The position numbers and the translations under genes were made by a program. From Conexibacter sp. CPCC 206217 (lineage in GTDB: Bacteria > Actinomycetota > Thermoleophilia > Solirubrobacterales > Solirubrobacteraceae), in assembly GCF_030646165.1 (NCBI RefSeq), contig NZ_JAUTDO010000001.1:930001-994000 (forward strand): a DNA stretch of 64,000 nucleotides, in the 5' to 3' direction. Of the stretch, positions 1 through 30,902 are shown piece after piece. Within the stretch, counting starts at the first letter, position 1; each line of letters starts with the position of its first letter. The notes under the pieces are model-generated. The model was not told the origin of the DNA. It saw only the letters and a program-made list of their open reading frames with translations, and searched no databases.

Positions 1-111
1 GGAACAGACGAGATTCACAGATGGTCGAGCGCAGTCGAGACCGAGCGCGGATTCGCGATCGCCCGCCACCGAATCCCGCGCAGCATGACCATCGAATACG
101 GCGGCGGCTGA
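1..111 (+). CDS. 3' end of a hypothetical gene, paralogue of the gene at 16555-16998 (truncated by window edge)
   Basis: Frame 1 is open from the first base and ends at TGA 109-111, giving 36 residues. They match the C-terminus of the 147-aa protein encoded at 16555-16998 at 33 of 36 positions by direct comparison (differences are P to H, R to S and V to I). The non-coding DNA downstream (112-248) is also recognisably related to 16999-17142. The function of the family is unknown. Its importance is positional: in the complete island the paralogue sits just beyond the integrase/excisionase/replication genes, so this fragment implies a second island backbone to the left of the window. Confidence 0.8.
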   Translation, partial: GTDEIHRWSSAVETERGFAIARHRIPRSMTIEYGGG

Positions 112-248
112 GCACCACCCGATACGCCACCACACGGGCCGCGCCGATCTCACCGTCGAGGACGGGCACCGCCGGCCCGCGGGATGCACCCACTCCGACG
201 CTCGCGTCGAGGGCAGCGACGAGGGCAAGCGACATCGCTAGAGATCGT
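1..248 (+). repeat. Left copy of a diverged ~250-bp repeat shared with 16888-17142
   Basis: This segment aligns end to end with 16888-17142. The coding part (1-111) is nearly identical. The following non-coding part keeps blocks such as GCGCCGATCTCACC and GGCGACATC with scattered substitutions and small indels. I read it as homologous island backbone rather than a transposon, because no terminal inverted repeats or transposase are present. Positions 112-275 hold no gene that I can support. Confidence 0.7.
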
Positions 249-275
249 CCGCGCACTTGGAAGCGCTGAGTCTGC

Positions 276-2840
276 TCAGTGAGATGCGGTCGTAAGGTGC
301 GCGGTGAGAGCGGTGCGGATGGTCGTCGTGCGGCGGTTGCCGGCGAGGTCCCGTGCCGCGATCGTCAGCCGCGTCGCGATCCCGCCGCGGGTGGCGCGCA
401 GCGCGGCCCGTGCGGCGCGACTGAGGTGAATGTGGGCGACCGTCCGCTTCCCCGCGCGGGCGCGGAAGCGGGCGCCGCCGAGCAGGCGGCCGTCTCTGCC
501 GGCGGCACGCAGCCTGATGGTGCCACGGCATGCGCCGTGGCCCGCGCCCTCGCGCGGCGAGCAGCCCAGCACGACCGCGACGACGCCCGCACGGCTGGCG
601 CGCAGGCGGGCGCTCGCGAGCGTGATCCCCGGCGGATACGGGTTGACCTGGAAGCTGACCTGCTTCGCGGCTCCCGGGCTGCCGTCGGTGCCGACGGCGC
701 GCACGGCGGCCATGTGATCGCCGGCGTCGACGCCAGCGAGCACGAACGGCGAGTTGCATGGCGTCCACGGGCCGTCGTCCAACCGGCACTCGTAGCCGCG
801 CGCGCCGGGAACCGCGGCGAACGCGACGCGGGCGTCTTTCGCGCGTCCGAGCGCCGGGGGGCCCGCGGTGATCCGCGGAGCCGGCAACCGGCTCGGCGGC
901 AAGGCGCCGCTCCCGGGCGGCGGCTCCTTCGCCGTCCCGCCGTCCGGCGCCGGCTGGGTCACCGTCGAGATCCCGTCGTCGGAACCGCACGCGGTCGTCG
1001 TCCCGTCGTTGTCGCCGTCGCCGCTGTAGACCGTCTCCCAGCGATAGTCACCGGGCGCCGGCGCGTCGAAGGGCGGCGACGCGTAGGTCCCGTCGCCGGC
1101 GACCGGCACCGGCCCGCTCTCGAACGCGGGCTGTCCCGCGCACGACCCGTCGGCCCAGGCGCGGAAGACGAGCGTGCCGGTCTGGCGGTAGCCGCCCGCG
1201 AGCGTCGCGGCGTCGGCGACCGGCGTGCCGAGCGAGGCGTCGCTCGCCGCCTGGGTCAGCGACGGCGCGGCCTTCGCGACCGTCGTCGTCTGCGCCGGGT
1301 CCTCGCACCCGCTCTCGCCCGAGATGGTCTGGTCGCCGCCCCAGTACTCGGCGCTCCAGCGATACGCCCCCGCGTGATCCAGGAGCTGGGCGGACGACCT
1401 GTAGACGCCGGGCCCGGAGACCGGGACCTCGCCCCACCACAACGGGGCGCCCGAGCAGTCCGGGTCGTCCGGGCCGTAGAGCGAGAAGGTGATCGAGCCG
1501 CCTGCGTCCGCTCTCACGTCCGACAGCGTCACGCTGTCCGCAGCGGTCTCGCCGATCGTCGCGGACGCCGGAGGCGCAGCGAGCAGCGACGCGACGTGCT
1601 GGCCGAGCAGCACCATCACGCGCTGCTCGCCTGACGCGGTGCCGACGACGAGGTCCGCCAGCCCGTCGCCGTTGAGGTCCCCCGCCGCGGCGCTGACTGC
1701 GGCCGTCTCGGGATCGGAGGTGTACAACTCGGCGCGCGACGCGTCCGCGAACGGCTGGCTGTGGCTGGGCTGCCCGTTCAGCAGCGCGACCTGCCGAGAC
1801 GAGGGCTCGATCACGGCGAGGTCGTCGCGGCCGTCGGCGTCGAAGTCGGCCGCGACCACGCTCGCAGGCGCGCCGCCGCCGGCCAGCGGATGCGAGATCG
1901 CGCTCTCGAACCCGCTCCCCGGCGCGTGCATGCTCGCGACGACGAGTGGCGAGCCCGGGGCGGCGCCCGCGACGTCGACGCGGCCGTCGCCGTCGAAGTC
2001 GCCGAGCGCGATGCTCGAAAGCGCGCCGCCGAAGAGCTGGCCGGGGGTGAAGCCGAACGCGCCGAAGCCGCTGTTGGACCAGACCCGGACGCCGGAAGAG
2101 GAGTCGTCGCCGGTGAGCACGTCGAGGTCGCCGTCGCCGTCGGCGTCAGCGAGCTCGACGTCGGTCAGACGCGACTGCACCGGCGTCGAGGTCAGGCTCC
2201 CGAAATTGCGGTTCGAGCCGGCGATGAGCACGCTCAGCGAGTCGCCGGCGGCCACGATGTCCGGTCGGCCATCCCCGTCCATGTCGCCGATCGCGATCGC
2301 CTTCGGGCCGTTCCCGACGGGGAACGCCGAGGACCGGTTCGGGCTGAGCGGCGAAGGGCTTCCGTCGCCCCACATCACGATCACGCGACCGTGCGCCTCG
2401 TCGGTGACCGCCACGTCGAGATAGCCGTCGCCGTCGAGGTCGGCGACCGCGACATCCCCCAGCGCGGCCGGCCCCTGGCCGCTTGAGACGGTCTGTGGTG
2501 TCAGGAAGACGCCCTGCGCGACGTTGGCGATAAACGTCACCGTGCCGTCGGCGTTCGACGTCACGATGTCGAGGTCGTCCGGCACGCTGAGATGGCCAAG
2601 CGCCACGCCCGTGACGCTGTGGCCGGTGCCGAACGCGATCACCTGTCGCAGCCCGGCTCTCGCGTTCGCGGCCGCCGCCGTCCCCAGCAGCGCCGCCGCC
2701 GCGAGCGCCAGCGCGATCGCAGCCTGCCAGGCGCGACCGCGTCCGCTCCGCGATCCTGCACGTCCGGTCCTCACAACCCCTGCACCCCCGGCCTCCGTCC
2801 CGTGCATAGCGCTCGCGCCAGTCGCTGCCGACGACGACAA
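276..2840 (-). CDS. Secreted FG-GAP/VCBS repeat protein with Ig-like C-terminal region
   Basis: An 854-aa protein. The N-terminus has a basic stretch followed by an alanine/leucine-rich hydrophobic segment (about residues 38-60) that looks like a signal peptide. Residues of roughly 70-420 carry repeated calcium-binding motifs of the D-x-D-G-D-G-x-x-D type (LDGDGYLD, MDGDGRPD, ADGDGDLD, FDGDGRVD, LNGDGLAD), typical of FG-GAP/VCBS beta-propeller blades. The rest resembles bacterial Ig-like repeats, with paired cysteines and a segment like those that cradle peptides in adhesins. The likely role is an extracellular or surface protein, possibly adhesive, but the ligand cannot be told. The ATG at 2840 is the longest start; an ATG at 2807 is an alternative. 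It occupies the cargo position of the truncated left island. Confidence 0.85.
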   Translation of the reverse strand: MSSSAATGASAMHGTEAGGAGVVRTGRAGSRSGRGRAWQAAIALALAAAALLGTAAAANARAGLRQVIAFGTGHSVTGVALGHLSVPDDLDIVTSNADGTVTFIANVAQGVFLTPQTVSSGQGPAALGDVAVADLDGDGYLDVAVTDEAHGRVIVMWGDGSPSPLSPNRSSAFPVGNGPKAIAIGDMDGDGRPDIVAAGDSLSVLIAGSNRNFGSLTSTPVQSRLTDVELADADGDGDLDVLTGDDSSSGVRVWSNSGFGAFGFTPGQLFGGALSSIALGDFDGDGRVDVAGAAPGSPLVVASMHAPGSGFESAISHPLAGGGAPASVVAADFDADGRDDLAVIEPSSRQVALLNGQPSHSQPFADASRAELYTSDPETAAVSAAAGDLNGDGLADLVVGTASGEQRVMVLLGQHVASLLAAPPASATIGETAADSVTLSDVRADAGGSITFSLYGPDDPDCSGAPLWWGEVPVSGPGVYRSSAQLLDHAGAYRWSAEYWGGDQTISGESGCEDPAQTTTVAKAAPSLTQAASDASLGTPVADAATLAGGYRQTGTLVFRAWADGSCAGQPAFESGPVPVAGDGTYASPPFDAPAPGDYRWETVYSGDGDNDGTTTACGSDDGISTVTQPAPDGGTAKEPPPGSGALPPSRLPAPRITAGPPALGRAKDARVAFAAVPGARGYECRLDDGPWTPCNSPFVLAGVDAGDHMAAVRAVGTDGSPGAAKQVSFQVNPYPPGITLASARLRASRAGVVAVVLGCSPREGAGHGACRGTIRLRAAGRDGRLLGGARFRARAGKRTVAHIHLSRAARAALRATRGGIATRLTIAARDLAGNRRTTTIRTALTAHLTTASH

Positions 2841-2879
2841 GCGTCATGGTGCCATACCGAGCGCGGCGACGGCAATGAC

Positions 2880-3083
2880 CGCGGTCACAGTGACGGCCAG
2901 CGAGGGTCCTGGTCTCGAGCAATTCGGAGACCTCGACGCTGACGCGATAGCCGATCAGCCGCGCCTCGCTGCGCAACCCGCACTCCTCGGCATCGAGGAT
3001 CTCCCCGAGGCTCACCCGCAGGTCGATCGCGATCATCCGGCGCAGGACGTCCCGCTCCGACTTGGTGACGCGCACGAGCACCC
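2880..3083 (-). pseudogene. Truncated paralogue of the helical protein at 30029-30427
   Basis: The reading frame starting at GTG 3083 (GTG CTC GTG CGC) encodes a segment beginning SERDVLRRMIA that follows the same pattern as SERGVLRDLIVA in the protein at 30029-30427. Similarity continues for about 50 residues (SLGEI, SEARLI, SELLE) and then stops. The complete protein has 132 residues, so most of its C-terminal half is missing here. The frame runs on without a stop into the start of the FG-GAP gene, so the end given is approximate. The same leader element precedes both copies (3123-3206 and 30485-30567). I infer a deletion remnant of an island-end gene; a short functional form cannot be excluded. 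Confidence 0.55.
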
Positions 3084-3122
3084 GGCGACCGCCGACGACG
3101 CTCTGCGCACGCGACTGTGCGC

Positions 3123-3206
3123 GTGAGGAACACTGGTCTTGCACCGAAAGCCTATTTTCGGTGCCGGGCCCGGGGTGTTGGCGCACCGCCGGGCCGCTTT
3201 TCACTT
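3123..3206 (-). promoter_or_regulatory. Left copy of a conserved two-hairpin leader element
   Basis: This segment is close to identical with 30485-30567. On the minus strand it lies 40-120 bases upstream of the truncated helical-protein gene. It contains a strong hairpin at 3167-3195 (GGCCCGG and CCGGGCC arms enclosing GGTG/CACC) and a perfect 9-bp hairpin at 3141-3164 (GCACCGAAA paired with TTTCGGTGC). The right copy keeps both stems although bases in the second stem differ. The remainder of this 372-bp gap (3134-3505) holds no gene that I can support. Confidence 0.6.
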
Positions 3207-3468
3207 GATTGCTACCTACAGCACGCTGCCCGTAGGCGGACCGCAATCCAGTGCAAGGTACTACGCCAGCACGCGCACCTACGACGACTACGCGTGTCGT
3301 GAACCCGATCCAACGAGACGACGCGCCGACGGTGTCATTCCGGCCCAGCCCTATCTGCAGGCGGGGCGCGCGACGCCCTGCAGCGCCCCTGGCGGGTCGC
3401 CTCGGAGGCACGCATATCCTAAAGATTGCCTAAAAAAGCACCTGCAATAGCGCCTGCGCACCCACGCC

Positions 3469-3505
3469 GGAAAGGCAGAAAACCCCGCATATAGCGGGGC
3501 TTTCC
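3469..3505 (-). terminator. Rho-independent-like terminator beside the left attachment site
   Basis: CCCCGC and GCGGGG (3483-3499) form a stem with loop ATATA, extended by outer GGAAAG/CTTTCC arms. On the minus strand the stem is followed by TTTT. It lies where a tRNA-Pro transcript would end had the island not inserted, and it mirrors the terminator at 30741-30770 beside the intact tRNA. Confidence 0.65.
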
Positions 3506-3530
3506 TGTAATCGGGGCGCCGAGATTTGAA
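3506..3530. repeat. attL: 25-bp duplication of the tRNA-Pro 3' end
   Basis: TGTAATCGGGGCGCCGAGAT followed by TTGAA is identical to 30770-30794, which covers the discriminator base, the 3' acceptor strand and part of the T-arm of tRNA-Pro(CGG). After it the sequences diverge (AGACTTAAG here, CTCGGGACC in the tRNA). This is the classic signature left by site-specific integration into a tRNA gene 3' end. Confidence 0.9.
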
Positions 3531-3712
3531 AGACTTAAGATAAGTCGCGTAGGCGCTTTTCCGCTGCTATTCGCTTGTTTGAGGTTCTGCGAAGTTTGCT
3601 GAGATCTGCGCGGGTTAGAGCCTTGGTTAGATCCTTCCGCCCGCAATTTGCTCTAGGTCCATGAGCCGGCGGTCCGCGATCTGCTGGACATCGCGCCCGC
3701 TGTCGCAGCCGT

Positions 3713-4033
3713 CTACGGCCCGGTCGCGCTGCCCGCGTTGTCGCGCACGTTGTCGGCCGCGCTCGTCGCGTTGGACCGGCTCGAGAACGACTCGCCCGAG
3801 GACGCCACCTTCTCGCCGTTGCCGGCCTTCGCGCGCCAGCGGTAGTTGCCGCCCGCATCCTCGTAGATCTCGTACGTATAGGTCTTGGCGCCGGCCTTGA
3901 ATCCTTCGGCGGCGCGAGTGGCGTTGGACTGGCTGGCGAAGGACTCGCCGGAGCTGGCGACGTTCTGCCCGTTGCCGTCGAGCAAGCGCCAGCGGTAGCT
4001 CCCGCTGGCGTCGGCGTAGACGTCGAACTGCAT
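3713..4033 (-). CDS. DUF1508 (YegP-like) protein with two tandem domains
   Basis: A 106-aa protein made of two consecutive repeats of the DUF1508 pattern: YRWRLLDGNGQNVASSGESF at about residues 13-32 and YRWRAKAGNGEKVASSGESF in the second half, each followed by SNA...AA. Double-domain YegP-type proteins are a common small family of unresolved function. The ATG at 4033 is chosen because GGGGG lies about 8 bases upstream on the minus strand and because the longer frame would run into the divergently transcribed retron gene. It is the first gene inside attL. Whether it belongs to the retron next door or is independent cargo cannot be told. Confidence 0.85.
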   Translation of the reverse strand: MQFDVYADASGSYRWRLLDGNGQNVASSGESFASQSNATRAAEGFKAGAKTYTYEIYEDAGGNYRWRAKAGNGEKVASSGESFSSRSNATSAADNVRDNAGSATGP

Positions 4034-4121
4034 GGCAAAGCCCCCTGGTAGGGAATCGGTACACGGAGATGTTCCTCGGCCCCTCGGACGGATCACTCCC
4101 GGCAGGTCCACCTTGCGTACG

Positions 4122-5351
4122 ATGACCTCAACGATGCGTCCGAGCGAGACAAGTGACGGCAGAGCCTGGCTGCGCAATTTCCACCGATCAGATGCGGAAC
4201 TCGCGACAGTCGTCCTCGACCGCTTGCGCTTCTTGAGCCTCGGCGACCTGCATGACAAGCTCCAGCGGTTCCTCGATCAGCCGCCTGGCAGCATCGTGCT
4301 CGAACGTCCGGCGCTCGTCGTTCCCGAGCGAAACCTTTCCCGTCTGGAAGAGGAGATGCCTGACCCTGCAAACGCCGTCGCCTGGCGTGATTTCGAACCG
4401 GGAGGCCCGATCTCTCTGCCATCGGGAAGCGACGGTTTCGTCGGGATGGTCCTGAGAGATTTCGCGCCGCGAGGCAGAAGACCGATCTCGGACTCAGGCC
4501 TGATTGCCCCGACCGCCGGTATCGAGGAGTTGCGGCAGCTGAGATGTCGCTCGATCGTGATCTTGACGGACTACGTCGGCTCGGGCTCTCAGGCGCAGAC
4601 GCTCGCTGCCGCGATCGCTCGCCACCCCACGATCCGCAGCTGGCGTGCGCTCGGTGTCATCAAGATCCACGTCGCGGCCGTCGCGGCGCAACGTATCGGC
4701 ATCGAGCGCCTCAGAGCGAGCCGATCAGTCGATCATGTGCACGAACTCGAGGTGGCGCCTTCGATCTGGACAACCTTCCCGGACCGCCACGTGCAGCAGG
4801 CCGTCATCGATCTCTGCGAGGGTTACAGCGCGAAGGGATGGCGCGCGCTCGGCTACGACGACGCGGCGGCGTTGTTCGTCACCCAGCGCAGCGCACCAAA
4901 CAACCTTCCAGCGATCTTTCTTCAACAGGGTCCTGCCTGGCAGCCGCTGTTCCCCGGTCGCAAGATCCCGAAGCGCTTCGCGTCGGAGCTCGGCGCGTAC
5001 CGTCCGTCGGAGAGACTTGAAGAACTTGCTGAACGAGTGGGTCACTTGCGTCTTGGCCGCAACGAACGCCTTCGCTCGATGCGGCGATCCAGTCGCGCCC
5101 TGCTGCACGTCCTCACCCAGGCGAGCCGCGAAGCGTCCGATGCTCTCCGCTTGGCGGAAGGCATGGGCATCGACGTTGCGGAGGCAGCAGCCTATCTGGT
5201 CGTCCTTCAGGACTGGGGCTTCCTCGACGGGTCCGGCCGCATCACGCCGGCCGGACGCACGGAACTGACCGAACACCGAAAAGGCCGACGGCGGACGACA
5301 GCACATTTGGCGGGGTCCTCTGAGCCGTACTATCCTCTCGCGCTGAGGTGA
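4122..5351 (+). CDS. Retron-associated phosphoribosyltransferase-like protein with C-terminal winged helix
   Basis: A 409-aa protein directly upstream of a retron reverse transcriptase. The central segment VILTDYVGSGSQAQT (about residues 143-157) resembles the PRPP-binding loop of type I phosphoribosyltransferase-fold proteins (PRTase-CE group), and a hydrophobic strand precedes it. The last ~100 residues read as a winged-helix domain (helices around LRSMRRSSRALLHVL and VAEAAAYLVVL, then GFLDGSGRITPAGR). PRTase plus winged helix is, as I recall, the effector arrangement of type III retrons. I infer a toxin-like effector held in check by the reverse transcriptase-msDNA complex. ATG 4122 was chosen over the longer ATG 4032, which would overlap the divergent gene. 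The stop codon lies inside repeat a1 of the msr-msd. Confidence 0.8.
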   Translation: MTSTMRPSETSDGRAWLRNFHRSDAELATVVLDRLRFLSLGDLHDKLQRFLDQPPGSIVLERPALVVPERNLSRLEEEMPDPANAVAWRDFEPGGPISLPSGSDGFVGMVLRDFAPRGRRPISDSGLIAPTAGIEELRQLRCRSIVILTDYVGSGSQAQTLAAAIARHPTIRSWRALGVIKIHVAAVAAQRIGIERLRASRSVDHVHELEVAPSIWTTFPDRHVQQAVIDLCEGYSAKGWRALGYDDAAALFVTQRSAPNNLPAIFLQQGPAWQPLFPGRKIPKRFASELGAYRPSERLEELAERVGHLRLGRNERLRSMRRSSRALLHVLTQASREASDALRLAEGMGIDVAEAAAYLVVLQDWGFLDGSGRITPAGRTELTEHRKGRRRTTAHLAGSSEPYYPLALR

Positions 5352-5573
5352 GGAGGTCGGACGGACACTTAGTGATGCCGGCGAACTTCCGCCGGCCGAG
5401 GGTCAGTGATCCACTGGCTCTTGAGGCGCGGCTCACCGCGTCTCTCCGGACAAGCTCACGCCTGTCGCGTGCAAGACAGACACACAGCCTGTCCTTCACA
5501 CGGCTTGGGTCTGTGCGTCTGTCTCCTTCGGGATCAAATCGAACGTAAGTGTCCGGCCTTCCTCCTCACCTCA
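5344..5573 (+). ncRNA. Retron non-coding RNA (msr-msd)
   Basis: The gap between effector and reverse transcriptase has the full layout of a retron RNA. Terminal inverted repeats a1 (5344-5371) and a2 (5546-5573) pair over 13 bp (TGAGGTGAGGAGG with CCTCCTCACCTCA) and, after a 5-nt internal mismatch, over 10 bp (CGGACACTTA with TAAGTGTCCG). An msr-type stem-loop lies at 5377-5396 (GCCGGCG, loop AACTTC, CGCCGGC). A second hairpin is at 5423-5444 (GAG.CGCGG, loop CTCA, CCGCG.CTC). A long msd-type hairpin spans 5474-5524 (AGACAGAC.CACAG paired with CTGTG.GTCTGTCT). The branching guanosine and the exact msd boundary cannot be fixed from sequence alone. The a1 repeat overlaps the effector stop codon, and a2 overlaps the presumed start of the reverse transcriptase. 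Confidence 0.85.
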
Positions 5574-6679
5574 AGCGCCAGCAGGCCGCTGAGCTCCAGC
5601 GCGACCCCGAGACAATCCGAAGAGCGCACGCAGTCGCGAAAGGATTACACCGACGAGGCGTCGTTCCCGTCGTTACACTCGGCCACCTGGCCCACCTCAC
5701 CGGCGCACGATCTCGCTATCTGCGCGAGATCGTCAACCGTAGCCGCGATCCCTACGTCGACATCGCCCGCCCTAAACGCGACGGCACATCGCGGCCGATC
5801 TCGAGCCCTGAGCCAATCCTCATGGACGTGCAGCGCTGGCTCCTCACCAACGTGCTCGACACTTGCGAGCCCCATCGTTGCAGCTGGGCATACCAGCGCA
5901 GACGCTCCATCGTCAGATGCGCCAACGAGCATGTCGGCGCCCGATGGCTCATAAAGCTCGACCTCCACGACTTCTACGGCAGCGTCAGAGAACCAGCCGC
6001 ATTTGCGATCTTCAACAGACTCGGGTATCCGCGGCTGCTGAGCTTCGAGATGGCACGACTCTGCACTCGGAGTCCGACACAGTTGGGTGGCATTCGGGCT
6101 AGTCGTCTGCCCTACCGGGAGAAACGATGGCTCGGCGTCCTTCCACAAGGCTCGCCTACCAGCGGTGTCCTCGCGAACGCCGCAATGCTGGAGGTCGATG
6201 AAGAGCTCGCGGAACTCGCCGATGCGCTGGATCTCGTCTACACGCGATATTCCGACGACATCGTCTTCTCCGCTTGGGACGAGTTCTCCCGCGCCCGCGC
6301 TTCCGCGCTGATCACGGACGTCACCAACATCCTTCGCAACTCACGTTTTCGAGTGCACAGGCGCAAGACCACCGTGGTCCCTCCCGGCGCCCGGAAGATC
6401 GTCTTGGGGCTCGACGTGCTCGACGATCGAGTCGCCCTTCCGGCCCAGTTCAAACGCCGGCTTGAGGTGCACGTTCGAGGTGTCAAGCGATTCGGCGTCG
6501 TGAGCCACGCTCAGCACCGCAGATTCCGGTCGGTGCTGTCTATGGTCGACCACGTCGATGGATGTCTCGCGTTCGCGGGCAACGTTGACAGAGGGTTCGT
6601 CGATCGCCTCCGGCCTGAATGGGAAGCCGCGCTGCATGCCAACGGGTACCCCGACCGACAGAACACGTTCGAAGGATAG
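5549..6679 (+). CDS. Retron reverse transcriptase
   Basis: A 376-aa group II-like bacterial reverse transcriptase. The N-terminal part (TLGHLAHLTGARSRYLREIV, about residues 43-62) is a retron-type start. RPISSPEPILMDVQRWL corresponds to RT motif 1, KLDLHDFYGS carries the first catalytic aspartates, LPQGSPTSGVLANA is motif 4, and YTRYSDDIVFS holds the YxDD catalytic box. KIVLGLDV resembles the retron-specific segment after the palm. It should prime synthesis of msDNA from the RNA just upstream and neutralise the PRTase effector. GTG 5549 is the only plausible start before the conserved region. It lies within inverted repeat a2, so the ends of the RNA and of the coding region overlap. Confidence 0.9.
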   Translation: MSGLPPHLKRQQAAELQRDPETIRRAHAVAKGLHRRGVVPVVTLGHLAHLTGARSRYLREIVNRSRDPYVDIARPKRDGTSRPISSPEPILMDVQRWLLTNVLDTCEPHRCSWAYQRRRSIVRCANEHVGARWLIKLDLHDFYGSVREPAAFAIFNRLGYPRLLSFEMARLCTRSPTQLGGIRASRLPYREKRWLGVLPQGSPTSGVLANAAMLEVDEELAELADALDLVYTRYSDDIVFSAWDEFSRARASALITDVTNILRNSRFRVHRRKTTVVPPGARKIVLGLDVLDDRVALPAQFKRRLEVHVRGVKRFGVVSHAQHRRFRSVLSMVDHVDGCLAFAGNVDRGFVDRLRPEWEAALHANGYPDRQNTFEG

Positions 6680-6939
6680 GAACACGAGCCAGCGCCCTAC
6701 CGCTGTGATGGGCCGGGCCTACGAACGATCGCACACGGCCTGTTGCTCGCTCGCCTACGACAGCGGCGCTGCTCTGCGCTCTTTCGGCGAGCGCTTACGA
6801 GAGCCAAGCTCTTCGGGAAGTCGCCGCGGGATGCGGATGCGCGCGTGTTTCGTTCACGGAGCTAGGATCTCGCCATGCGCCGTGCATCCGGTCCCGTATC
6901 TGAGGACTTTGCCACCGTTCCTGGTCGGAGAGAGTAGTC

Positions 6940-7494
6940 GTGGCGGGTCCCTACGCCCCGACCGGGTTTCGCGCTGAGATCACGCCTGGGACGGCTGGCT
7001 TTCCCGGCCTTCAAGATCTCCACAACAATTTTCGTGAGTGGTACTCATGGGCCGTAGTCGCCTCGATCGCCGGGGCTGCTGGACTCTATTGCCACGTCCC
7101 CGTGATCGATGGCAACAAGACAGACGTTCGTCTCGAAACGGTCAGTATGTGGAACGGCAAGCAGCGCTCCGTTCGTCTCCAGCTCAAGGCGACGTCCAAT
7201 ATCGGGACGGCATCGGAGCACGGGATTGATTACGTCACAAAGTCGTTCGAGCGCGACTACTACGACGGGATGCAAGAACCAGCGCCGATCCCGCTTTTCC
7301 TTGTTCTGATCGCGTTGCCGCCACTGACCGCTCCGTGGACCCGAGTTCGACAGGGCATCCATGCGTTGCACGCGGCAGCTTGGTGGGGAAGAGTCACTGA
7401 ACCTTCAAATGGGCTGGCCAACCAAACCGTGCGCATTCCAGCGAGCCAGCGCTTGGACCTTGCCGGCCTCCAAACAATGCTGATGCAGGCATGA
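6940..7494 (+). CDS. DUF4365-like protein, possible PD-(D/E)XK nuclease fold
   Basis: A 184-aa protein. The pattern WYSWAVVASIAGAAGL followed by a D at about residue 63 (GNKTDVRLE) and then RLQLKATSN about 15 residues on resembles DUF4365, a family often proposed to have a PD-(D/E)XK nuclease-like core (D and Q-x-K). This assignment is by eye and tentative. GTG 6940 is supported by GGAGAG 7 bases upstream. It overlaps the next gene by ATGA, so the two are translationally coupled. The 260 bases before it contain only a possible 20-codon ORF starting at 6875 that I do not count. Position in the defence wing of the island, between retron and Gabija, suggests an antiviral role. Base composition looks lower in GC than the chromosome. 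Confidence 0.7.
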   Translation: MAGPYAPTGFRAEITPGTAGFPGLQDLHNNFREWYSWAVVASIAGAAGLYCHVPVIDGNKTDVRLETVSMWNGKQRSVRLQLKATSNIGTASEHGIDYVTKSFERDYYDGMQEPAPIPLFLVLIALPPLTAPWTRVRQGIHALHAAAWWGRVTEPSNGLANQTVRIPASQRLDLAGLQTMLMQA

Positions 7495-8612
7495 CGTCTC
7501 TCAATGTCTCACCGGCGGCGATCCGCCACGAGCTTCAGCGACTGGGGTTCCGCGAGTACGACACCGAAGGTCGTGCTGGGGTGACGTGGGCTCATCCCAG
7601 CCATTTGGACGGACCAGCGGTTCTCGTGCCTCGCGAAGACGACCATGCCCTGCGCGGCTACGAAGAAACGCTGGTATCGGCAATCCATCGTATCTCGTGG
7701 ATCACTGAACAGCCTTTCGACGCGGTGGTAGCTCGGCTCGCGGGCGGCGCCAACCGAATGGAGCTTCGTATCCTCCATGCGTTGACGGTCCGAAACTCTC
7801 TCAGGGCTCTCGATGCACCAGTTGTCGTTAGATCGTTTGTAGACTTGATCAAGAACGGCGCTCGAACAGAGTTTACCGGCGCCCGCGTGGACCATCGCGG
7901 CTCGGGCGGCCCTGACTACGACGCCGCACTCGACGGAATTGAATTGCTTGCTCCAGAGCCCGGAAGCTTCCGGCTGGTCGCGATCTCTGTGGAGCTCCCA
8001 CAAATGGCCTTTACAGGGAACGCCCCGATCAGATCTCGAGATGCACTCGTAGCAACACTTCGTAGCCTTGTCGCTCTTAGCGAAGAGAGCCGACCTGCGG
8101 ATGAACTCGACGAGGATGATGTTGAGTCGCTCGTCGATGCCGGCGTTTCAAAACAGCTGCTCAATGCAATCGAAGGTCTTGCCATCACCGACAAATCTGG
8201 CTTGCGATTGGAGTTCAGCGGCGCGTGGGATCCCACGCTCCCTGCGCCGGACGCGCCAAGCAGAACTGTGGTGATTGGAGATGCGGAGATTAGTTTTGCG
8301 CGGGCATTGAAGCCGCTCCTCGCCCCCTACGAGCCGATCGATGACTATCAGCTCACTGGGTGGGTAGAAACCACGAAGGCCGAGGGGCTTTCTTTTGACG
8401 GTTTCCCGTCCGGAACCGTAGTCGTCCGCCAACGGGTCGCCGGACGCCTGCGGGACATTGTTGTTCAGTTGGACAGCGAGAGCTTTCCCCAAGTTCAAGC
8501 TGGTGTTTCGGAGGTGCGGATGCTCGGTACGCTCGAACGCATTGCCGGTCGGTGGCATCTCACCGATCCTCGCGACGTAGTCATTTCAAGAGCCGAGCCG
8601 CCTAAATCCTGA
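7491..8612 (+). CDS. Hypothetical protein coupled to the DUF4365-like gene
   Basis: A 373-aa protein that I do not recognise. It has no signal peptide or membrane segment. The N-terminus (AAIRHELQRLGF) looks helical, a serine/acid-rich stretch with several D and E residues lies around residues 200-215 (ADELDEDDVESL), and the C-terminal part alternates short beta-like segments. A middle segment (ARVDHRGSGGPDYDAALDGIELL, described by its ends only) contains the DHRGSGGPDYD cluster, which could be catalytic or merely a turn. It starts in the ATGA overlap with the preceding gene, so the two products probably work together. GACCCG/CGGGTC at 8611-8630 may form a weak terminator right after the stop. 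Confidence 0.75.
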   Translation: MTSLNVSPAAIRHELQRLGFREYDTEGRAGVTWAHPSHLDGPAVLVPREDDHALRGYEETLVSAIHRISWITEQPFDAVVARLAGGANRMELRILHALTVRNSLRALDAPVVVRSFVDLIKNGARTEFTGARVDHRGSGGPDYDAALDGIELLAPEPGSFRLVAISVELPQMAFTGNAPIRSRDALVATLRSLVALSEESRPADELDEDDVESLVDAGVSKQLLNAIEGLAITDKSGLRLEFSGAWDPTLPAPDAPSRTVVIGDAEISFARALKPLLAPYEPIDDYQLTGWVETTKAEGLSFDGFPSGTVVVRQRVAGRLRDIVVQLDSESFPQVQAGVSEVRMLGTLERIAGRWHLTDPRDVVISRAEPPKS

Positions 8613-8913
8613 CCCGCCGCATGACGGGTCTGGGACGCCTCTCGACAGAGCCATCGGTTCTAGTTGCCGCCACTGAGCGAGATGCGCGCGGCAGATCGGG
8701 TTCTACACCAGGAGATCACCATCAACTAGGGCGGTCCATACCGGGCACCATCCCTGGCGCGTGATCGCCGCCGCGACCATCCGAGACTCGTGCCGGTCGG
8801 GGAGCTGACCGCGGTGCCGCGCGCCACGGTTGTTCGTCAGCGGTGAGGAGCACGGAGCTGGTTTCATAGCGAGGCGTCATCAGATCCACAACGAAGGGGC
8901 CGTTGCTGCGGCG
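8613..8913. other. Intergenic region without a supported gene
   Basis: These 301 bases separate two convergent transcription units. Apart from a small inverted repeat at the left edge (GACCCG, spacer, CGGGTC, 8611-8630), I see no open reading frame with a start and ribosome site, no RNA gene and no mobile-element ends. It may hold terminators for both units. Confidence 0.5.
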
Positions 8914-10719
8914 CTAGGCAAGGGTCGAATGAAAGCCCATCGTCAGGTACCGCGTAAAGACATCCTCGGCGACGCTGTCAGGGAGCGCGACGGCGCAGTA
9001 GCGCTTGGCTCGGGAGACGGAGACGAAGCCGATTCGCAATTCTTCGCGCTCGGAGGGGTCGACGTGCTCTTCAGCCACGATCGCGGAGAGCAGACTCGCT
9101 TGGTCGGTGCGGCCCGATCGCGAGGCGCCCTCGACAATCAGGAGAACCGATTCGATCGACCGTCCCTTGACGGCATGGACGGTGTGGACAGGTGGTGAGG
9201 TCGCCGCCGCCACGAAATGCGCGTCGGCCTGGACGGTCTTGTACTTCGGCAGATTCTTGAGCACGTCCCGTGGCTTGTGCGCCAGTTCCTGTCTGACACC
9301 GAGTTCTGTGAGTGCGGTCACCACGTGTGGGCGACAGGCGGCGGACCACTCGCCCAGGGGACCTTTCAGGGGAGGGAGGCGTGTGCGAAGACGTCCGACG
9401 ACCAGTCGGAGCTTGCGTTGCTTGTCGTGCGGCAGGTCGTCGTAGTTCAGCTCTGGTCTGATGAGCCACAGCAGCGCGTCTTCGACGGCGCGGACATCGG
9501 CAGCGCTGAGGGTTTTGCCTGTGCTCGAGGCGGCGCCGAAGCGTCCGAGCGCGCGGAGCACTCGGTGCGAGTCGATCGAGATCCTGCCTTCGATCGTGTC
9601 AGCCAAGCGCGCCGCACGTACGACGACGACCGCCTCCGCGGGGTCAAGTCCGTGGAGCGCCAGCCGCGCATGGAACTGTTCGACAGCAGCAGCAGGTCGG
9701 TCGCGGTCGTATCGGTAGATCTCGGGTGGCACATCGCAGGCCGCGTTGGGTCCCTTCGCGATGTCGGCATGGGGTCGCTGCGTGAAACGGTGCGCTACGT
9801 CGCAGATGAGCTGTGAGGAGCGGAAGTTTGCTGTGAGGTTAAGCTCGTCGAGACCGCGTGCCGAAGCAAACTCCTGGAAGCGCTCGGGGTCTGCGCCCTG
9901 GAAGGCATAGATCGATTGCTCCGGGTCGGCGACGGTCACGAGCGACTTCAGCTTGCCGGTGTCCATGAGCGCTTCGAGGCACGCGAGTTGAACGTCGGAG
10001 GTGTCCTGCGCCTCATCGATGATGATCTCGTCGAAGCGGCCTGCGATGGCGCGGGCGATGCGCGGATAGCCGCGCAGGACTTGCAGCGCCCAGTAGAGCG
10101 CGTCGGAGTGGCTCACCACGCCGCTGCGGGCGTGCAGCGTCTTGAGCTGTCTGGCCTGTGCGGCGCCTTTCTCATTGATCTCGTCCAGATCCATGTAGTG
10201 GAAGTCCGAGGGGCGGGAGTGGCACAGCGCGTTCCCGTTGCGGTCGAAGTGGAAGTGCGCGACCGAGAGGCGCATTGTCTTTTCCTCGTTGAGGATGACT
10301 GCTTTCCAGCCTCGTGCGGCGTTGGCGTCTTGATCCCAGTCGGGGCCTCGGATCCGTAATCGCTTTCTGTAGTCGCAGACGAGATGGCCGAATGGTCGGA
10401 GCACGTAGGTGTTCAGGAACCTGTGCAACGTGTCGACGAAGTGCTCGCGCCCAAGGACGACATCTGTCTGGCGGCAGACTTCTCGGACTTCGTCGACGGC
10501 GACGTTCGTGTAGGACGCCACGGCGATGCGGCGTTCGCCGTCGCGAGCTGCATGCGCGAGTCGCAGGGCCACGGTGCGTGTCTTTCCAGAGCCTGGTCGA
10601 GCGGCCAACGTGAAGTTGCCTGGGTGGACGACGGCGGCCCGCTGCTGCTCAGTCAGTTCGTCGAGGGCAACCTGCAGCTTTGAGCGGCTGTCAGAAACCA
10701 CAGGCGAAAGCGATCGCAT
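8914..10719 (-). CDS. gajB: GajB-like UvrD/PcrA superfamily 1 helicase of a Gabija system
   Basis: A 601-aa superfamily 1A helicase. Walker A is ARPGSGKT at about residues 40-47, Walker B is IIIDEAQDTS, motif III is DPEQSIYAFQGAD, motif IV is the LTANFRSS segment, and motif VI is VSVSRAKRYCAVALP near the C-terminus. Length and partnership fit GajB: the upstream overlapping gene encodes an OLD-family nuclease. In Gabija, GajA nicks DNA and GajB is thought to sense DNA ends or termini and to activate GajA, leading to phage restriction. The ATG at 10719 gives a 29-bp overlap with gajA; a GTG about 18 bases downstream is an alternative start. Function is inferred from the pair; a generic UvrD-OLD island would look the same. 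Confidence 0.85.
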   Translation of the reverse strand: MRSLSPVVSDSRSKLQVALDELTEQQRAAVVHPGNFTLAARPGSGKTRTVALRLAHAARDGERRIAVASYTNVAVDEVREVCRQTDVVLGREHFVDTLHRFLNTYVLRPFGHLVCDYRKRLRIRGPDWDQDANAARGWKAVILNEEKTMRLSVAHFHFDRNGNALCHSRPSDFHYMDLDEINEKGAAQARQLKTLHARSGVVSHSDALYWALQVLRGYPRIARAIAGRFDEIIIDEAQDTSDVQLACLEALMDTGKLKSLVTVADPEQSIYAFQGADPERFQEFASARGLDELNLTANFRSSQLICDVAHRFTQRPHADIAKGPNAACDVPPEIYRYDRDRPAAAVEQFHARLALHGLDPAEAVVVVRAARLADTIEGRISIDSHRVLRALGRFGAASSTGKTLSAADVRAVEDALLWLIRPELNYDDLPHDKQRKLRLVVGRLRTRLPPLKGPLGEWSAACRPHVVTALTELGVRQELAHKPRDVLKNLPKYKTVQADAHFVAAATSPPVHTVHAVKGRSIESVLLIVEGASRSGRTDQASLLSAIVAEEHVDPSEREELRIGFVSVSRAKRYCAVALPDSVAEDVFTRYLTMGFHSTLA

Positions 10720-14328: not shown

Positions 14329-15593
14329 AGCCGCCGGCCACAACGGCCAGCTGCGGCCTTGCCGCATCACGCGGCGGCGCCGGCCGCGCGAACGCAGCCG
14401 CCACCATCTCCCCCTCATGCTCGCTCGGCGCGTAGTCGGCATAGCGCTGCGTCGTCGTGAGGTCGCGGTGCCCCATCCATTCCTGGAGCGTGCGCAGCGG
14501 GACGCCGGCGGCGGCCATGTGGGTACCGAAGGTGTGGCGCAGGTCGTGGAAGCGGTGGGACTCGTCGATGTCGGCGTTCTTGAGCGCGAGGCGGAAGCGG
14601 CGGGCGATGTTGGCCTTTAGGATGAACGCCGCCGTGGTCGGGGTGGGCGAAGACGAGATCGTCGGGCCGGCGCCAGCGCGAGCCGGCTTCGAGGGTGCGC
14701 AGTGCGGCGGCCAGCTCGGGCGTCATCGGGACTGAGCGGGTGGAGCGGCGGGTCTTGGGGGTGCCGAATTCGCCGCAGGTGTAGTTGCGGCGGATGCGGA
14801 TGCGGGCGGCGTGCCAGTCGACGTCTCTCCAGCGCAGCGCGACCAGCTCGCCTTTGCGCATGCCGGTCATGACGGCGGCCATGAACATCGGTTTGTCGAT
14901 GTGTTCGAACATGCCTGGGTGGACGTGGGCGAGCATGCGGTCGATCTCGTCGAGGGTGAGGAAGCGGACTTCCTGGGGCTCGGGGACGGCGGGCAGCTCG
15001 ATGCCTTCGCATGGGTTGGAGAAGGCGTATCTGCGGTGTGGGGCCTTGGCGAAGTTGAAGAGCGCTGAGAGCGTGCCGAGGATGTCGCGGACGGTCTTGG
15101 GCGCGAGTCCTCTGCGTTCGAGCAGGCCCATGAGCGTGATCACCTCGGCGGCTTCGAGCGCGTCGACGGGGCGTCTGCGGAAGAACGGGTCGAGGTGGAC
15201 GCGGACGTCGCTCTCTATGCCTATGAGCGTGCCTTTCTTGCGACCGCGGCGTCTGGCGTTCTCGACGTAGAGCGCGCCGAGGTCGGCGATCGTGATGCGG
15301 TCGTCGGCGATCTGCTTGACCTCGGTCTCGTAGATCATGCGCCGCAGCTTCTCCTCGGCCTGCAACTCGGTCAGCCCGCCGTCGCGGCTGTTGCGGCCGC
15401 GTTTGGGGCCGATGTGGCGCTTGAGGCGTCTGCCGCTGGCGTACCAGGTGCCGTAGTAGACCTCTTCGCCGCTGGCCGTCGTGCGGATGAGCAGGCGGCC
15501 GGAGCCGCGCTTGCGGCGGCCTCTGCCGGCCGGCCGCTCTCGGAAGCCGGTGCTGGTTCTGCTGCGTGGTCTTCTCGCTCTGGCTCTTGGCAC
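14312..15593 (-). pseudogene. Tyrosine integrase interrupted by a frameshift
   Basis: Two reading frames together make one complete phage-type integrase of about 426 residues. The upstream frame carries the SAM-like core-binding region and the first catalytic arginine (TGMRKGELVALRW). It then reaches LVFAHP at about 14645 and becomes nonsense. The downstream frame resumes with AFILKANIA and holds [23 protein letters not shown] and the catalytic tyrosine in [10 protein letters not shown]. The span of 1282 bases is one more than a multiple of three, so one extra base, probably in the run of four G at 14640-14643, accounts for it. It may be a true inactivating mutation, a sequencing error in a homopolymer, or, less likely, programmed frameshifting. 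The enzyme would act on the tRNA-Pro attachment sites. Confidence 0.8.
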
Positions 15594-15651: not shown

Positions 15652-15900
15652 TCATCCAGACCAAGGGGCTTTGCCAGGACCACGACGTTGTGCCGCCCAC
15701 CAACGTCGCAGCTCCGCGGGTTCGAAGCGCACATAGCGGCCGAGCCGCAGGTGCGGGATGCGCTGCGCGCGCGCCTGGGCGAGCACCCACGTCTTGGGCA
15801 CGCCAAGCAGCTCGGCGGCGGCCTGCGCGTCGATCAGGCCGGCGGGCGGCTCAGCGGCCGGGTCGAGGTTCGTGATCGTCGGGGTCGGCGTCTCGGTCAT
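15652..15900 (-). CDS. Excisionase-like MerR-type DNA-binding protein
   Basis: An 82-aa protein with a winged-helix excisionase pattern: IDAQAAAELLGVPKTWVLAQ (about residues 23-42), then RIPHLRLGRYVRFEPAELRRW. This is the usual DNA-binding domain, excisionase family, that precedes integrases in actinobacterial integrative elements. It should bind beside the attachment sites and favour excision. It lies 58 bases upstream of the integrase and overlaps the replication-relaxation gene by 50 bases, so the three form one operon reading leftward. Confidence 0.85.
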   Translation of the reverse strand: MTETPTPTITNLDPAAEPPAGLIDAQAAAELLGVPKTWVLAQARAQRIPHLRLGRYVRFEPAELRRWWAAQRRGPGKAPWSG

Positions 15901-16438
15901 CGATTAGCCATCCGGTCGTCGTTTCAGGGTCGGTGGGGGTGGTGAAGATCGGCGCGAACGGGCCGGGCTCGGTGAGGTCGTCGAGCAGGCAGATCGCGGA
16001 CTCGGCCTCGGGCGTGGCGGTGAGCAGCGGGTCGGCGCGGCAGAGTCCGAGGACGGTGCGTCGCCGTTGCAGCAGCCGTTCGCGGCGCTGGCCGGCGAGC
16101 ACGACGATGACGCTCGGGAAGACGGCGTAGCTGTGGGTCCAGAGCGGTTCGGGCGGGTCGTCGGGGTCCTCGGCGGGTTGGTAGTGGTGGTAGAGGCGGG
16201 CGTACTTGGCGAGCTTGTCGGCGAGGTGGTCGACGGGGATCGTCGCGCGGTCCAGCTCGATGAAGCGGGAGTGGAAGCTCGGCCCGTGGTCGCTGTTGAG
16301 CTGGTAGGTGAGGACGGCGTCGGCGATCAGTTGCTCGGGCGTGCGGCGGCCCGGCGGTGGGCCGAGCGGGTGCGCGATCTCGTGGCGCCAGCTCAACGGT
16401 CCGCAGTCGTCGCCGCGCTCAGGCACCGGAAGCGTCAT
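15851..16438 (-). CDS. Replication-relaxation family protein (short form)
   Basis: A 195-aa protein with the segment FIELDRATIPVDHLADKLAK followed by YARLYHHYQ, which is characteristic of the replication-relaxation family of actinobacterial plasmids and integrative elements (winged-helix proteins that help initiate replication or mobilisation). Family members that I recall are usually near 300 residues, so this copy appears to lack an N-terminal portion. ATG 16438 is chosen because GGGAGG lies 6 bases upstream; the longer GTG start has no such site. It heads the operon with the excisionase and integrase. Confidence 0.75.
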   Translation of the reverse strand: MTLPVPERGDDCGPLSWRHEIAHPLGPPPGRRTPEQLIADAVLTYQLNSDHGPSFHSRFIELDRATIPVDHLADKLAKYARLYHHYQPAEDPDDPPEPLWTHSYAVFPSVIVVLAGQRRERLLQRRRTVLGLCRADPLLTATPEAESAICLLDDLTEPGPFAPIFTTPTDPETTTGWLIDDRDADPDDHEPRPGR

Positions 16439-16554: not shown

Positions 16555-16998
16555 ATGCTCGCCAGAACCGGCGGGGACACGTCGGCCCCGACGCTGGATT
16601 CGATCTGGCCCGTGATCCAGCAGTGGGCCGCTACACCCGTCGCCGACGTCAGCGGGCACGACAGCGACCTGATGCTCTACGAAACCGCCCTGTCACTCAA
16701 ACCCGCGTCACGTCACGGATCGCCACCGCACTTCTGGATCGGCATCACACGCCAGTTCGCCCCCGACCGCGAGGAAGTCGAGGGCATCTGCATCGCGCTC
16801 GGATACGAGCACGACGAAGATCCCGCCGCCACCGTCACGATGAGCGGACCCGAGCACGGCTACGGGGCGCAGACATGGGGACAGGCCGGAACAGACGAGA
16901 TCCCAAGATGGTCGAGAGCAGTCGAAACCGAGCGCGGATTCGCCGTCGCCCGCCACCGAATCCCGCGTAGCATGACCATCGAATACGGCGGCGGCTGA
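16555..16998 (+). CDS. Hypothetical island-backbone protein (147 aa)
   Basis: A protein that I do not recognise. It is acidic and has no signal peptide or membrane segment. The middle contains HFWIGITRQFAPD and a segment typical of small globular proteins (EVEGICIALGYEHDED). The C-terminus WSRAVETERGFAVARHR is nearly identical to the fragment at 1-111. ATG 16555 is chosen because the longer frame would overlap the divergent replication gene. Its repeated presence next to the integration module suggests a backbone function such as immunity between islands or maintenance; that is inference only. Confidence 0.7.
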   Translation: MLARTGGDTSAPTLDSIWPVIQQWAATPVADVSGHDSDLMLYETALSLKPASRHGSPPHFWIGITRQFAPDREEVEGICIALGYEHDEDPAATVTMSGPEHGYGAQTWGQAGTDEIPRWSRAVETERGFAVARHRIPRSMTIEYGGG

Positions 16999-28855: not shown

Positions 28856-29146
28856 CTACTCGTGTGCTCGGCGCCGCCGTCGTCTCGGCGGCGGGTCGTG
28901 TCGGCGGGACTCGTAGAGCGCGAACAACTCCGAGAGCTTCATGTCGAGACCGTGTCCGACCTTCAGGAGGACCCGGAACGTGGGGTTGATCTCGCCGCGC
29001 TCGATTGCGCCGATGTAGTTGCGGTGCAGCCCCGCGCGGAACCCGAGGGTCTCCTGCGAGAGGTCTCGGCGTGCGCGCGACTCGCGCACTGCTCGGCCGA
29101 GCACCTCGTGCTCACGCGATTGCATCCGGCTGGGGGCGCCCATCAC
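28856..29146 (-). CDS. XRE-family repressor-like protein
   Basis: A 96-aa protein with a Cro/CI helix-turn-helix: LGRAVRESRARRDLSQETLG, then FRAGLHRNYIGAIERGEINP with the recognition helix, and LLKVGHGLDMKLSELF completing the bundle. The C-terminal tail is short and basic. The start is the GTG ATG pair at 29146/29143, which overlaps the stop of the upstream gene (ATGA), with GGAG upstream. It is the last gene of a four-gene operon with three related helical proteins and probably represses the operon or another island promoter. Confidence 0.85.
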   Translation of the reverse strand: MMGAPSRMQSREHEVLGRAVRESRARRDLSQETLGFRAGLHRNYIGAIERGEINPTFRVLLKVGHGLDMKLSELFALYESRRHDPPPRRRRRRAHE

Positions 29147-29601
29147 GTCTCCTCCGCGTCTGGGATCGCGACGCGGTTGTAGGCGAGCTGGACCAGGAGC
29201 GTGCCGCAGACACCCGCGACGATCGCGACGCTCTGAAGCTCCTCGCGATCGACACCCCCGCCGTCAGCGCGCTCATAGAGCCGCTCGATCGCGTGCTCGT
29301 GCAGCCGCAGCAACGCGCGCATGAGCGCGTCGGGGTCCATCGTGATCGCGAACTCGCGACACGGGTCCACTCGCGTCCAGCCAATGTCGTCCAGCAGCCG
29401 CATCAGGTCGCGGTAGCGATGGCGCAACATCCGCGCGTCGTTGGGCCGGTCGTCATCGACAGCCCAGAAGATGTCGCCGATCGACGCCAGCAGCGTCCGG
29501 ATCAGCTCCCACAACGCGTCCCGCTCGACCCGCCCGACCGTCACCACCCCGGCCGCGTCGTCGGCGCCACGGGCATGGGTGCACCGCGCTGCGGAGGTCA
29601 T
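29143..29601 (-). CDS. Helical protein of a three-member paralogous set (third)
   Basis: A 152-aa protein of unknown function. It shares with its two upstream neighbours the pattern RDALWELIRTLL, a helix ending in LMRLLDDIGW, then CREFAITMDPDALMRALLRLHEHAIERL. The C-terminal third is a hydrophobic helix-rich region (VAIVAGVCGTLLVQLA). The start is in an ATGA overlap with the gene before it, and its stop overlaps the XRE gene. Proteins of this kind could be small regulators or antitoxin-like; nothing more specific can be said. Confidence 0.75.
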   Translation of the reverse strand: MTSAARCTHARGADDAAGVVTVGRVERDALWELIRTLLASIGDIFWAVDDDRPNDARMLRHRYRDLMRLLDDIGWTRVDPCREFAITMDPDALMRALLRLHEHAIERLYERADGGGVDREELQSVAIVAGVCGTLLVQLAYNRVAIPDAEET

Positions 29602-30032
29602 GAGCGCTCCCCCGCACCGCCGCAACGGCACTCGGCAGGCTCGTCGCCGACCATCTGCGCCAACACCTCCACCGACGCCGACATCGTCAACACGGCATCA
29701 CACGCCGCCGAGCGCATCACCACGCGACCGCTGCCGCCGAGGTAGTCGGCCACCAGACGCGTGGCCCGGTCGTGCAACCTCACCAACACGCGCGTCGCCG
29801 CCGGCGGGTCCATCGTGACCGCGAACGCGCTGCGCACGTCGTTCAGGTCCCAGCCGAGGTCATCCAGCAGCCGCAACAGCTCCTCGTAGTGCTCGCGCAG
29901 CCGCCGCGCCACTATCGCGTGCCCGTCCTCGATCGCGCGATGAATCTCGCCGAGCCCGTCCAACTCGATCACGACCTGCTGCCGCAACGCCTCCCGCTGG
30001 GAGCGACTGATCGTCATCCGCTCCCGCATCAC
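29598..30032 (-). CDS. Helical protein of a three-member paralogous set (second)
   Basis: A 144-aa protein. It begins MTISRSQREALRQQVV (from the internal ATG 30017) and contains EELLRLLDDLGWDLNDVRSAF, followed by VTMDPPAATRVLVRLHDRAT, closely following the third member. The start may be GTG 30032, ATG 30029 or ATG 30017; the first two sit in a GTGA overlap with the upstream stop. It ends with a cysteine pair (AECRCGG). No signal peptide. The three genes presumably arose by tandem duplication and diverged. Confidence 0.75.
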   Translation of the reverse strand: MMRERMTISRSQREALRQQVVIELDGLGEIHRAIEDGHAIVARRLREHYEELLRLLDDLGWDLNDVRSAFAVTMDPPAATRVLVRLHDRATRLVADYLGGSGRVVMRSAACDAVLTMSASVEVLAQMVGDEPAECRCGGAGERS

Positions 30033-30427
30033 GACCCACCGCCCGCGTCGTCGTCCTCGATCTCCGTCAGCTCGATCAGGATCTCGTCGGCGACACGCAT
30101 CGCGACCGACGCCGCCTCCACCTCAAGGCCGCCTTTACCGGTCGGGTGCGGCGAATCGATCACCACACCAAGCGCATGCTCGTACAGACGGGCGAGCGCG
30201 CGCCGGTGCGGCCCCCACTCTCTCGCGAACGTGAACTCCCGTCCGGGGTCGTTCGCGCCCCAGCCGAGGTCCTCCAGCAGGTGGAGGTCCTCTCGCCAGC
30301 ACCGACCCAGCTCGCGCGCCTCTCTGAGCCGGCCCGCCTCGATCACCGCGGCGAGCTCACCCACGCTCGCGATCCGCGCCACGATCAGATCGCGCAACAC
30401 GCCCCGCTCAGAGGGGCTGATCGTCAC
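30029..30427 (-). CDS. Helical protein of a three-member paralogous set (first)
   Basis: A 132-aa protein starting at GTG 30427 (VTISPSERGVLRD), chosen because it aligns with MTISRSQREALRQ of the second member. The ATG at 30484 would add 19 residues with no counterpart. The core DLHLLEDLGWGANDPGREFTF and RRALARLYEHALGVV matches the other two. The C-terminus is acidic. A degraded copy lies at 2880-3083, and both are preceded by the same two-hairpin leader. It heads the operon with the two paralogues and the XRE gene; all junctions overlap. Confidence 0.75.
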   Translation of the reverse strand: MTISPSERGVLRDLIVARIASVGELAAVIEAGRLREARELGRCWREDLHLLEDLGWGANDPGREFTFAREWGPHRRALARLYEHALGVVIDSPHPTGKGGLEVEAASVAMRVADEILIELTEIEDDDAGGGS

Positions 30428-30484: not shown

Positions 30485-30567
30485 GTGAGGAACAATGGAC
30501 TTGCATCGAAGGCCTCCTTCGGTGCCGGGCCCGGGGTGTTCGCGCACCGCCGGGCCGCTTTCAGTTA
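30485..30567 (-). promoter_or_regulatory. Right copy of the conserved two-hairpin leader element
   Basis: Upstream of the helical-protein operon on the minus strand. Hairpin 1 (30528-30556) has GGCCCGG/CCGGGCC arms continued by GGTG/CACC around a 6-base loop. Hairpin 2 (30503-30525) pairs GCACCGAAGG with CCTTCGATGC at 9 of 10 positions. The left copy (3123-3206) keeps both stems although the bases of hairpin 2 differ in a compensating way. GGTGC of hairpin 1 can also pair with GCACC of hairpin 2, so two mutually exclusive folds are possible. The following bases up to the terminator (30568-30740) hold no gene that I can support. Confidence 0.55.
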
Positions 30568-30770: not shown

Positions 30771-30794
30771 GTAATCGGGGCGCCGAGATTTGAA
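30770..30794. repeat. attR: 25-bp attachment repeat within tRNA-Pro
   Basis: Identical to 3506-3530. It covers the discriminator base, the 3' acceptor strand and the T-arm up to the T-loop of the intact tRNA gene. Integration at this position leaves the tRNA intact and places the duplicate at the far end of the island. Confidence 0.9.
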
Positions 30795-30848
30795 CTCGGG
30801 ACCTCTCCGACCCGAACGGAGCGCGCTACCAGGCTGCGCCACGCCCCG
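30775..30848 (-). tRNA. tRNA-Pro (anticodon CGG)
   Basis: Read on the minus strand, the gene is 74 bases long: acceptor stem CGGGGCG paired with CGCCCCG, D-arm containing AGCCTGGTAGC, anticodon stem CTCCG/CGGAG with loop TTCGGGT (anticodon CGG at 30812-30814), T-arm with GTTCAAATC, and discriminator A. CCA is not encoded. It reads codon CCG, frequent in this GC-rich genome. It is the integration target of the island. Confidence 0.93.
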
Positions 30849-30902
30849 ATGACGCTGTTCAGTATTCCACAGCGGCGACTCGATGGTACGTTCCCCCCCA
30901 CG

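Follow-up and report, generated by a model that had tools for sequence, protein, structure and literature searches.

How did two units with the same order of parts come to stand one behind the other at a single tRNA gene, and what is the structured RNA that both of them carry? The question is raised by a 64,000-nucleotide stretch of the Conexibacter sp. CPCC 206217 genome, called the window here (G000:C1:930001-994000 of a 5.94-Mb genome; C1 coordinates below 930001 lie outside the window, to its left). A 27-kb island laden with defence genes (3512-30794) ends at a tRNA-Pro(CGG) gene, and to its left lies the end of a second, related unit. Taken as a whole, the best explanation is in our view very probably that tRNA-Pro(CGG) has been targeted repeatedly by related integrative elements, in which a leader RNA would restrain the first gene of the operon. 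The features on which the boundaries rest are the following.

30774..30849, minus strand: tRNA-Pro(CGG), the integration target, whose 3' end is the attachment core (ARAGORN; Rfam RF00005, 60.5 bits)
3512..3530, no strand: attachment repeat between the two islands, with a 19-bp core CGGGGCGCCGAGATTTGAA identical to 30776-30794 in the tRNA-Pro 3' end
about 3481..3507, no strand: terminator-like hairpin, duplicated along with the repeat; the 56-bp terminator and repeat segment is present three times at the locus

The terminator and repeat segment has exactly three matches in the genome, every one at the tRNA-Pro(CGG) locus (window 3470-3560, window 30744-30794 and C1:924555-924607), and the repeat at 3512-3530 is therefore not a chance occurrence. 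The third of these, 5.4 kb left of the window edge, is the further copy that the original prediction, made from the window alone, had expected in this direction. Its repeat (C1:924589-924607, or window -5411 to -5393) retains 18 of the 19 core bases, with one mismatch, and has kept its own terminator hairpin. The position of this copy sets the size of the left unit at 8.9 kb, with a repeat at each boundary. The repeats that bound the units are thus the 3' end of the target gene, as in tandem-accreted integrative elements of the type formed by cis-mobilizable elements (CIMEs) and integrative mobilizable elements (IMEs), and site-specific recombination would be their cause.

Comparison of the two units relies on the following features.

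1..111, plus strand: 3' end of the left copy of the shared 'backbone' gene; the full gene reaches about C1:929668, outside the window, and 131 of 146 amino acids are identical to the right copy
276..2840, minus strand: FG-GAP repeat protein, cargo of the left island (PF13517 E 6.4e-39, PF01839 E 2e-23)
2885..3133, minus strand: truncated helical-protein gene, with a frame that opens at the start codon of the leader (matched by tblastn with the right-hand helical protein)
3130..3201, minus strand: structured 5' leader RNA of the left island (covariance model R1, 83.6 bits; fold z -3.8)
16555..16998, plus strand: right-hand counterpart of the backbone gene (147 aa), inside a 690-bp block at 16455-17140
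28856..29146, minus strand: XRE-type regulator downstream of the right leader (PF01381 E 1.4e-10), a gene seen at the same position behind many leaders
29143..30427, minus strand: run of three helical-protein genes that follow the right leader (mutual tblastn matches)
30492..30562, minus strand: corresponding structured 5' leader in the right island, with 86.1 bits against covariance model R1

In both units the order is repeat, cargo, backbone gene, cargo, helical gene, leader, terminator and repeat, and the left-hand parts that had been described from the window (the backbone end, the FG-GAP gene, the truncated helical gene, the leader, the terminator and the repeat) all lie where they had been placed. 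The 690-bp block is 88% identical in DNA to the left unit; the backbone gene copies share 33 of 36 residues within the window, and their dN/dS of 0.25 is consistent with selection that has maintained the protein in both. The original prediction had named the presence of block 1-248 in many unrelated places as evidence against itself; this block is found in two places of the genome only. The shared framework is modest, consisting of one gene together with the leader, helical, terminator and attachment end, and the cargo and the integrase/relaxase region differ. The backbone gene was also considered as a widespread marker of such elements and was rejected, as it is confined to this genome among the 146 family genomes, elsewhere giving just a 22-residue match.

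The decay of the units points in one direction. For about 80 aa the left helical gene matches the beginning of the first helical gene on the right at 37% identity, and from there on the two diverge. Directly left of the outer repeat (C1:924402-924283, minus strand) we found a remnant of 40 residues which shares 80% identity with the helical protein encoded by another island in the same genome, located at tRNA-Phe. The helical genes are thus shortened stepwise from right to left to far left, and we read this as a third occurrence of the shared gene order, nearly all of it lost. This third remnant beyond the outer repeat suggests at least three insertions, with the oldest leftmost.

A single large island reaching from 924.6 to 960.8 kb, in which the backbone gene, leader and repeat were duplicated internally and no part entered separately, would account for the 88% identity of the shared block and for a backbone gene seen nowhere else in the 146 family genomes. 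However, the duplicated parts (backbone block, leader, and terminator with repeat) are set apart by unlike DNA and are arranged as in a complete element. Each copy of the repeat consists of the tRNA 3' end, and the third helical remnant is found beyond the outermost repeat. Other genomes moreover contain tandems of two units, with a pair of leaders and a pair of repeats, and in one of them (G031) there are two integrases as well. We therefore give internal duplication little credence and prefer successive insertion.

The tandems in two relatives, at tRNA-His and tRNA-Phe, are independent of the window locus. At tRNA-His of G031 (locus L148), two complete units stand in tandem, each running from leader to XRE gene to integrase; the tRNA (3746-3820) is followed by repeat copies at 11772 (80% over about 230 bp) and 17921-17993 (93% over 74 bp), and the stretch from 3746 to 17993 is probably the best choice of an intact model for the family. 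At tRNA-Phe of G026, two leader and repeat copies lie 12.1 kb apart and are 89% identical over 280 bp. At the tRNA-Pro gene of G031, two repeats enclose a unit of 4.7 kb that contains a leader, a helical gene and an XRE gene. Near tRNA-Pro(UGG) of another relative, on the opposite strand, three leaders and three tyrosine integrases are crowded within about 7 kb (L144 4569-11449, G005).

Together, these observations suggest the following course of events. Each element would carry at its tRNA-proximal end the tRNA 3' end and terminator, then the leader RNA and the helical or XRE genes, transcribed away from the tRNA. Every insertion would rebuild the tRNA and move the element already present further left, separated from the newcomer by a displaced tRNA end copy. 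The most recent element would be the 27-kb island, the next the 8.9-kb left unit, a CIME-like relic that has lost its integrase, and the roughly 40 codons beyond its outer repeat would belong to the helical gene of a still older element. The claim made from the window, that elements had inserted successively with the framework kept and the cargo exchanged, is well supported by the third repeat, the third helical remnant and the tandems in relatives, although the framework that was kept is small and does not extend to the integrase/relaxase region. The left-hand part had also been called the tail of a second related island. It does belong to such an island but is better named the head that faces the tRNA, since the integration and regulation operon of the element begins there with the leader.

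Two further features of the right island bear on its mobility.

14415..15593, minus strand: tyrosine integrase, frameshifted as assembled, with PF00589 in two frames (C1:944640-944963 and C1:944429-944611)
15851..16426, minus strand: fragment of a replication-relaxation (relaxase-like) gene (PF13814 E 4.8e-7)

Since the integrase domain is split over two frames, the right island is probably without mobility by its own enzyme, unless the frameshift is an assembly error. As assembled, the newest element has no intact recombinase at present, though none is necessary for a past insertion, and intact integrases headed by the leader are present in relatives. The left unit lacks a recombinase and retains both attachment repeats, as expected of a CIME.

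Several points weigh against repeated insertion as described. The second integrase module that had been expected to the left is not there: a PF00589 scan of the whole genome gave no match within the left unit, and when six tyrosine integrases and a serine recombinase were used as queries, tblastn gave none in 924.2-933.5 kb nor in the 44 kb further left. The right-island integrase, besides its frameshift, lies in the middle of the island and not beside a repeat. These results thus point to no particular enzyme as the maker of the insertions. An empty tRNA-Pro site was not found in relatives (tblastx against them was too noisy to serve), and the LacI-type gene left of the locus does not adjoin tRNA-Pro(CGG) in relatives. 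Concerning the role of the leader, its start codon in the right island opens a frame of merely 32 codons.

In kind, the locus is a case of classical accretion, with an integrative element beside a decayed one, and stacking is an already known process. Tandem accretion has been described for IMEs and CIMEs (PMC5704250) and for islands at ssrA (PMC3146451). The arrays of integrative and conjugative elements (ICEs), IMEs and CIMEs (PMC5704250; ICESt1-type) are similar to ours in their tandem arrangement with chimeric attachment sites; here, in contrast, the old unit is without an integrase, that of the new unit is frameshifted, and both open with a shared structured RNA. The Dehalococcoides ssrA islands (PMC3146451) likewise stand in large numbers behind one RNA gene, every island lying between 20-bp repeats of the gene 3' end and having the integration module at one edge. 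Their target is the tmRNA gene and their enzyme a serine recombinase, whereas the target here is tRNA-Pro and the relatives carry tyrosine integrases or serine recombinases. As for hallmarks of actinomycete ICEs (PMC3218068), no FtsK/SpoIIIE-type Tra protein or replication initiator was seen among the Pfam-scanned proteins, a scan that was not exhaustive, and only the Replic_Relax fragment was present.

The stacking adds one more clear example to a known process; its value is that comparison of the two units exposed a conserved RNA. Model searches found the leader in 69 of 146 family genomes (E<=1e-3), and at E<=1e-4 in 101 of the 399 genomes of the class and 36 of the 396 of the phylum. Tyrosine integrases lie within 6 kb downstream on the same strand in 10 of 40 genus copies, against 0.19 expected. 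Within 9 kb on the same strand, 17 of 52 copies have a tyrosine integrase downstream and three have a serine recombinase; the remaining copies are followed mostly by XRE or helical genes, or are unassigned. Pfam confirmed downstream integrases at L128, L134, L144 and the viral L172 and L177, serine recombinases at L062 and L163, an XRE protein at the viral L187 and Cas1 at L136. Among the 52 copies retrieved, eleven follow a tRNA gene at a distance of 138-618 bp, all of them co-directional with it, and none follows an opposite-strand tRNA. From this excess of downstream integrases and the co-directional tRNA association, we read the RNA as a probable 5' leader of integration and regulator operons of mobile elements. 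If it controls integrase translation, it would also be a sequence marker by which islands and prophages could be located, as copies elsewhere often flag an integrase operon or a tRNA-linked insertion. In one genome (G072, L136 4001-5593) the leader stands directly before a Cas1 gene, which has the AUG of the leader as its start.

Viral contigs carry the same leader. A scan of IMG/VR with the hairpin-2 pattern alone gave 24 stretches, all 24 of which match the whole two-hairpin model, the weakest being L181 (E 0.005); hairpin 1 was thus recovered unasked, because only hairpin 2 had been searched for. The matches came from the GCACAGGAG form of the pattern, and the GCACCGAAGG form gave no viral match. 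That the leader heads integrases in these contigs, together with a match of the integrase to phrog_1, would suit elements that are satellites or remnants of temperate phages, stacked by repeated lysogeny at tRNA-Pro. No Pfam capsid, portal or terminase was found among 30 scanned proteins (the gene scan was not exhaustive), and the relaxase-like fragment and the defence cargo point instead to a mobilizable element; a phage origin therefore appears improbable to us. Annotated plasmids and phages gave no blastn match to the leader.

The fold of the leader is conserved. Already in a first alignment of 20 copies, made with no structure information supplied and used to build the search model, two hairpins emerged in which 6 of 18 pairs show compensatory changes. 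With 54 sequences aligned, double compensatory changes are seen at 13 of 15 pairs and 97% of cells pair, in a set whose genome copies were selected by the model, which favours pairing, and whose viral copies are unbiased for hairpin 1 and not for hairpin 2. None of 500 shuffles reached the covariation score, and slide comparisons stayed far below it too. In the predicted fold, the ribosome-binding site and the bases preceding the AUG pair with each other in hairpin 2, and the AUG itself has a mean unpaired probability of about 0.34 in most copies. Integrases, XRE proteins and Cas1 begin in frame at this AUG in many copies. A riboswitch-like alternative pairing of CGGUGC in hairpin 1 with GCACCG in hairpin 2, seen by eye in the window copies, was dropped as it is not conserved in L081, L091 and L094. 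No strict sigma-70 consensus promoter was found upstream of the leaders, and a looser TTGnnn-17-TAnnnT signal is in modest excess there (7.8 versus 6.8 in shuffles).

Hairpin 1 is GC-rich and has a terminator-like shape, so the leader could be taken for a mere transcription terminator or a protein-binding site in the DNA. We consider this unlikely, since there is no U-run behind hairpin 1, hairpin 2 pairs the ribosome-binding site and proteins of three kinds start in frame at its AUG. We propose, from the genomic data, that the leader restrains translation of the integration genes: as the first operon gene has its ribosome-binding site and AUG paired in hairpin 2, translation of the integrase or regulator would most likely stay low until the hairpin is opened. 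We incline, with some reserve, to regard the leader as an uncatalogued class of cis-regulatory RNA of the mobile elements and viruses of this phylum, which would hide both the start codon and the ribosome-binding site and thereby limit integrase production to times when a signal or partner opens the RNA. It could also block translation of read-through transcripts from the tRNA promoter, which is one possibility only, as most copies are not beside a tRNA. If the leader does control integrase translation, it would offer a handle on the timing of island and prophage movement in these poorly studied bacteria.

No prior description of this RNA was found in Rfam 15 or, in a partial search of few text queries, in the literature; Rfam gave no match to the leader at E<=1, with the tRNA recovered as a control. 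An Rfam 'gathering' scan of window 1-32000 was empty and missed even tRNA-Pro, which scores 60.5 bits in a smaller scan, and was not used as evidence; negative gathering scans over long stretches call for caution. Two described motifs come near. The start-associated and extended start-associated sequences (SAS/ESAS) of cluster K mycobacteriophages (PMC3203893) also form a conserved motif at the starts of some mobile-element genes, about half with an upstream inverted repeat. The SAS 13-mer GGGATAGGAGCCC is, however, absent from the 54 aligned leaders, and ours is a covarying two-hairpin RNA across many genomes. The STAXI motif (PMC2864571) is likewise a candidate structured RNA near integrases and DNA-handling genes, but it is a repeated pseudoknot, in contrast to the two plain hairpins over a start codon described here, which lack an Rfam match.

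The cargo of the two units deserves a brief description. In the left unit, outside the window (G000:C1:925082-929560), a protein of about 1044 aa with RHS repeats is encoded. Some fragments there look like a DNA methyltransferase and were read by eye as a relic of one; the one fragment that was scanned had no Pfam match. In the right island, the first of the three paralogous helical proteins (29143-30427) has a sub-threshold TY-Chap3 match (E 0.007). A PRTase and reverse transcriptase pair at 4032-6679 was assigned by PADLOC to PRTase_III-A and RT_III-A (retron-type III-A like). Further defence cargo lies at 6940-14328 and comprises a PDC-M02A/B pair, Gabija GajA/GajB (8914-12496, minus strand) and an RmrA-like helix-turn-helix/M78 protein, on account of which the right island can be called a defence island.
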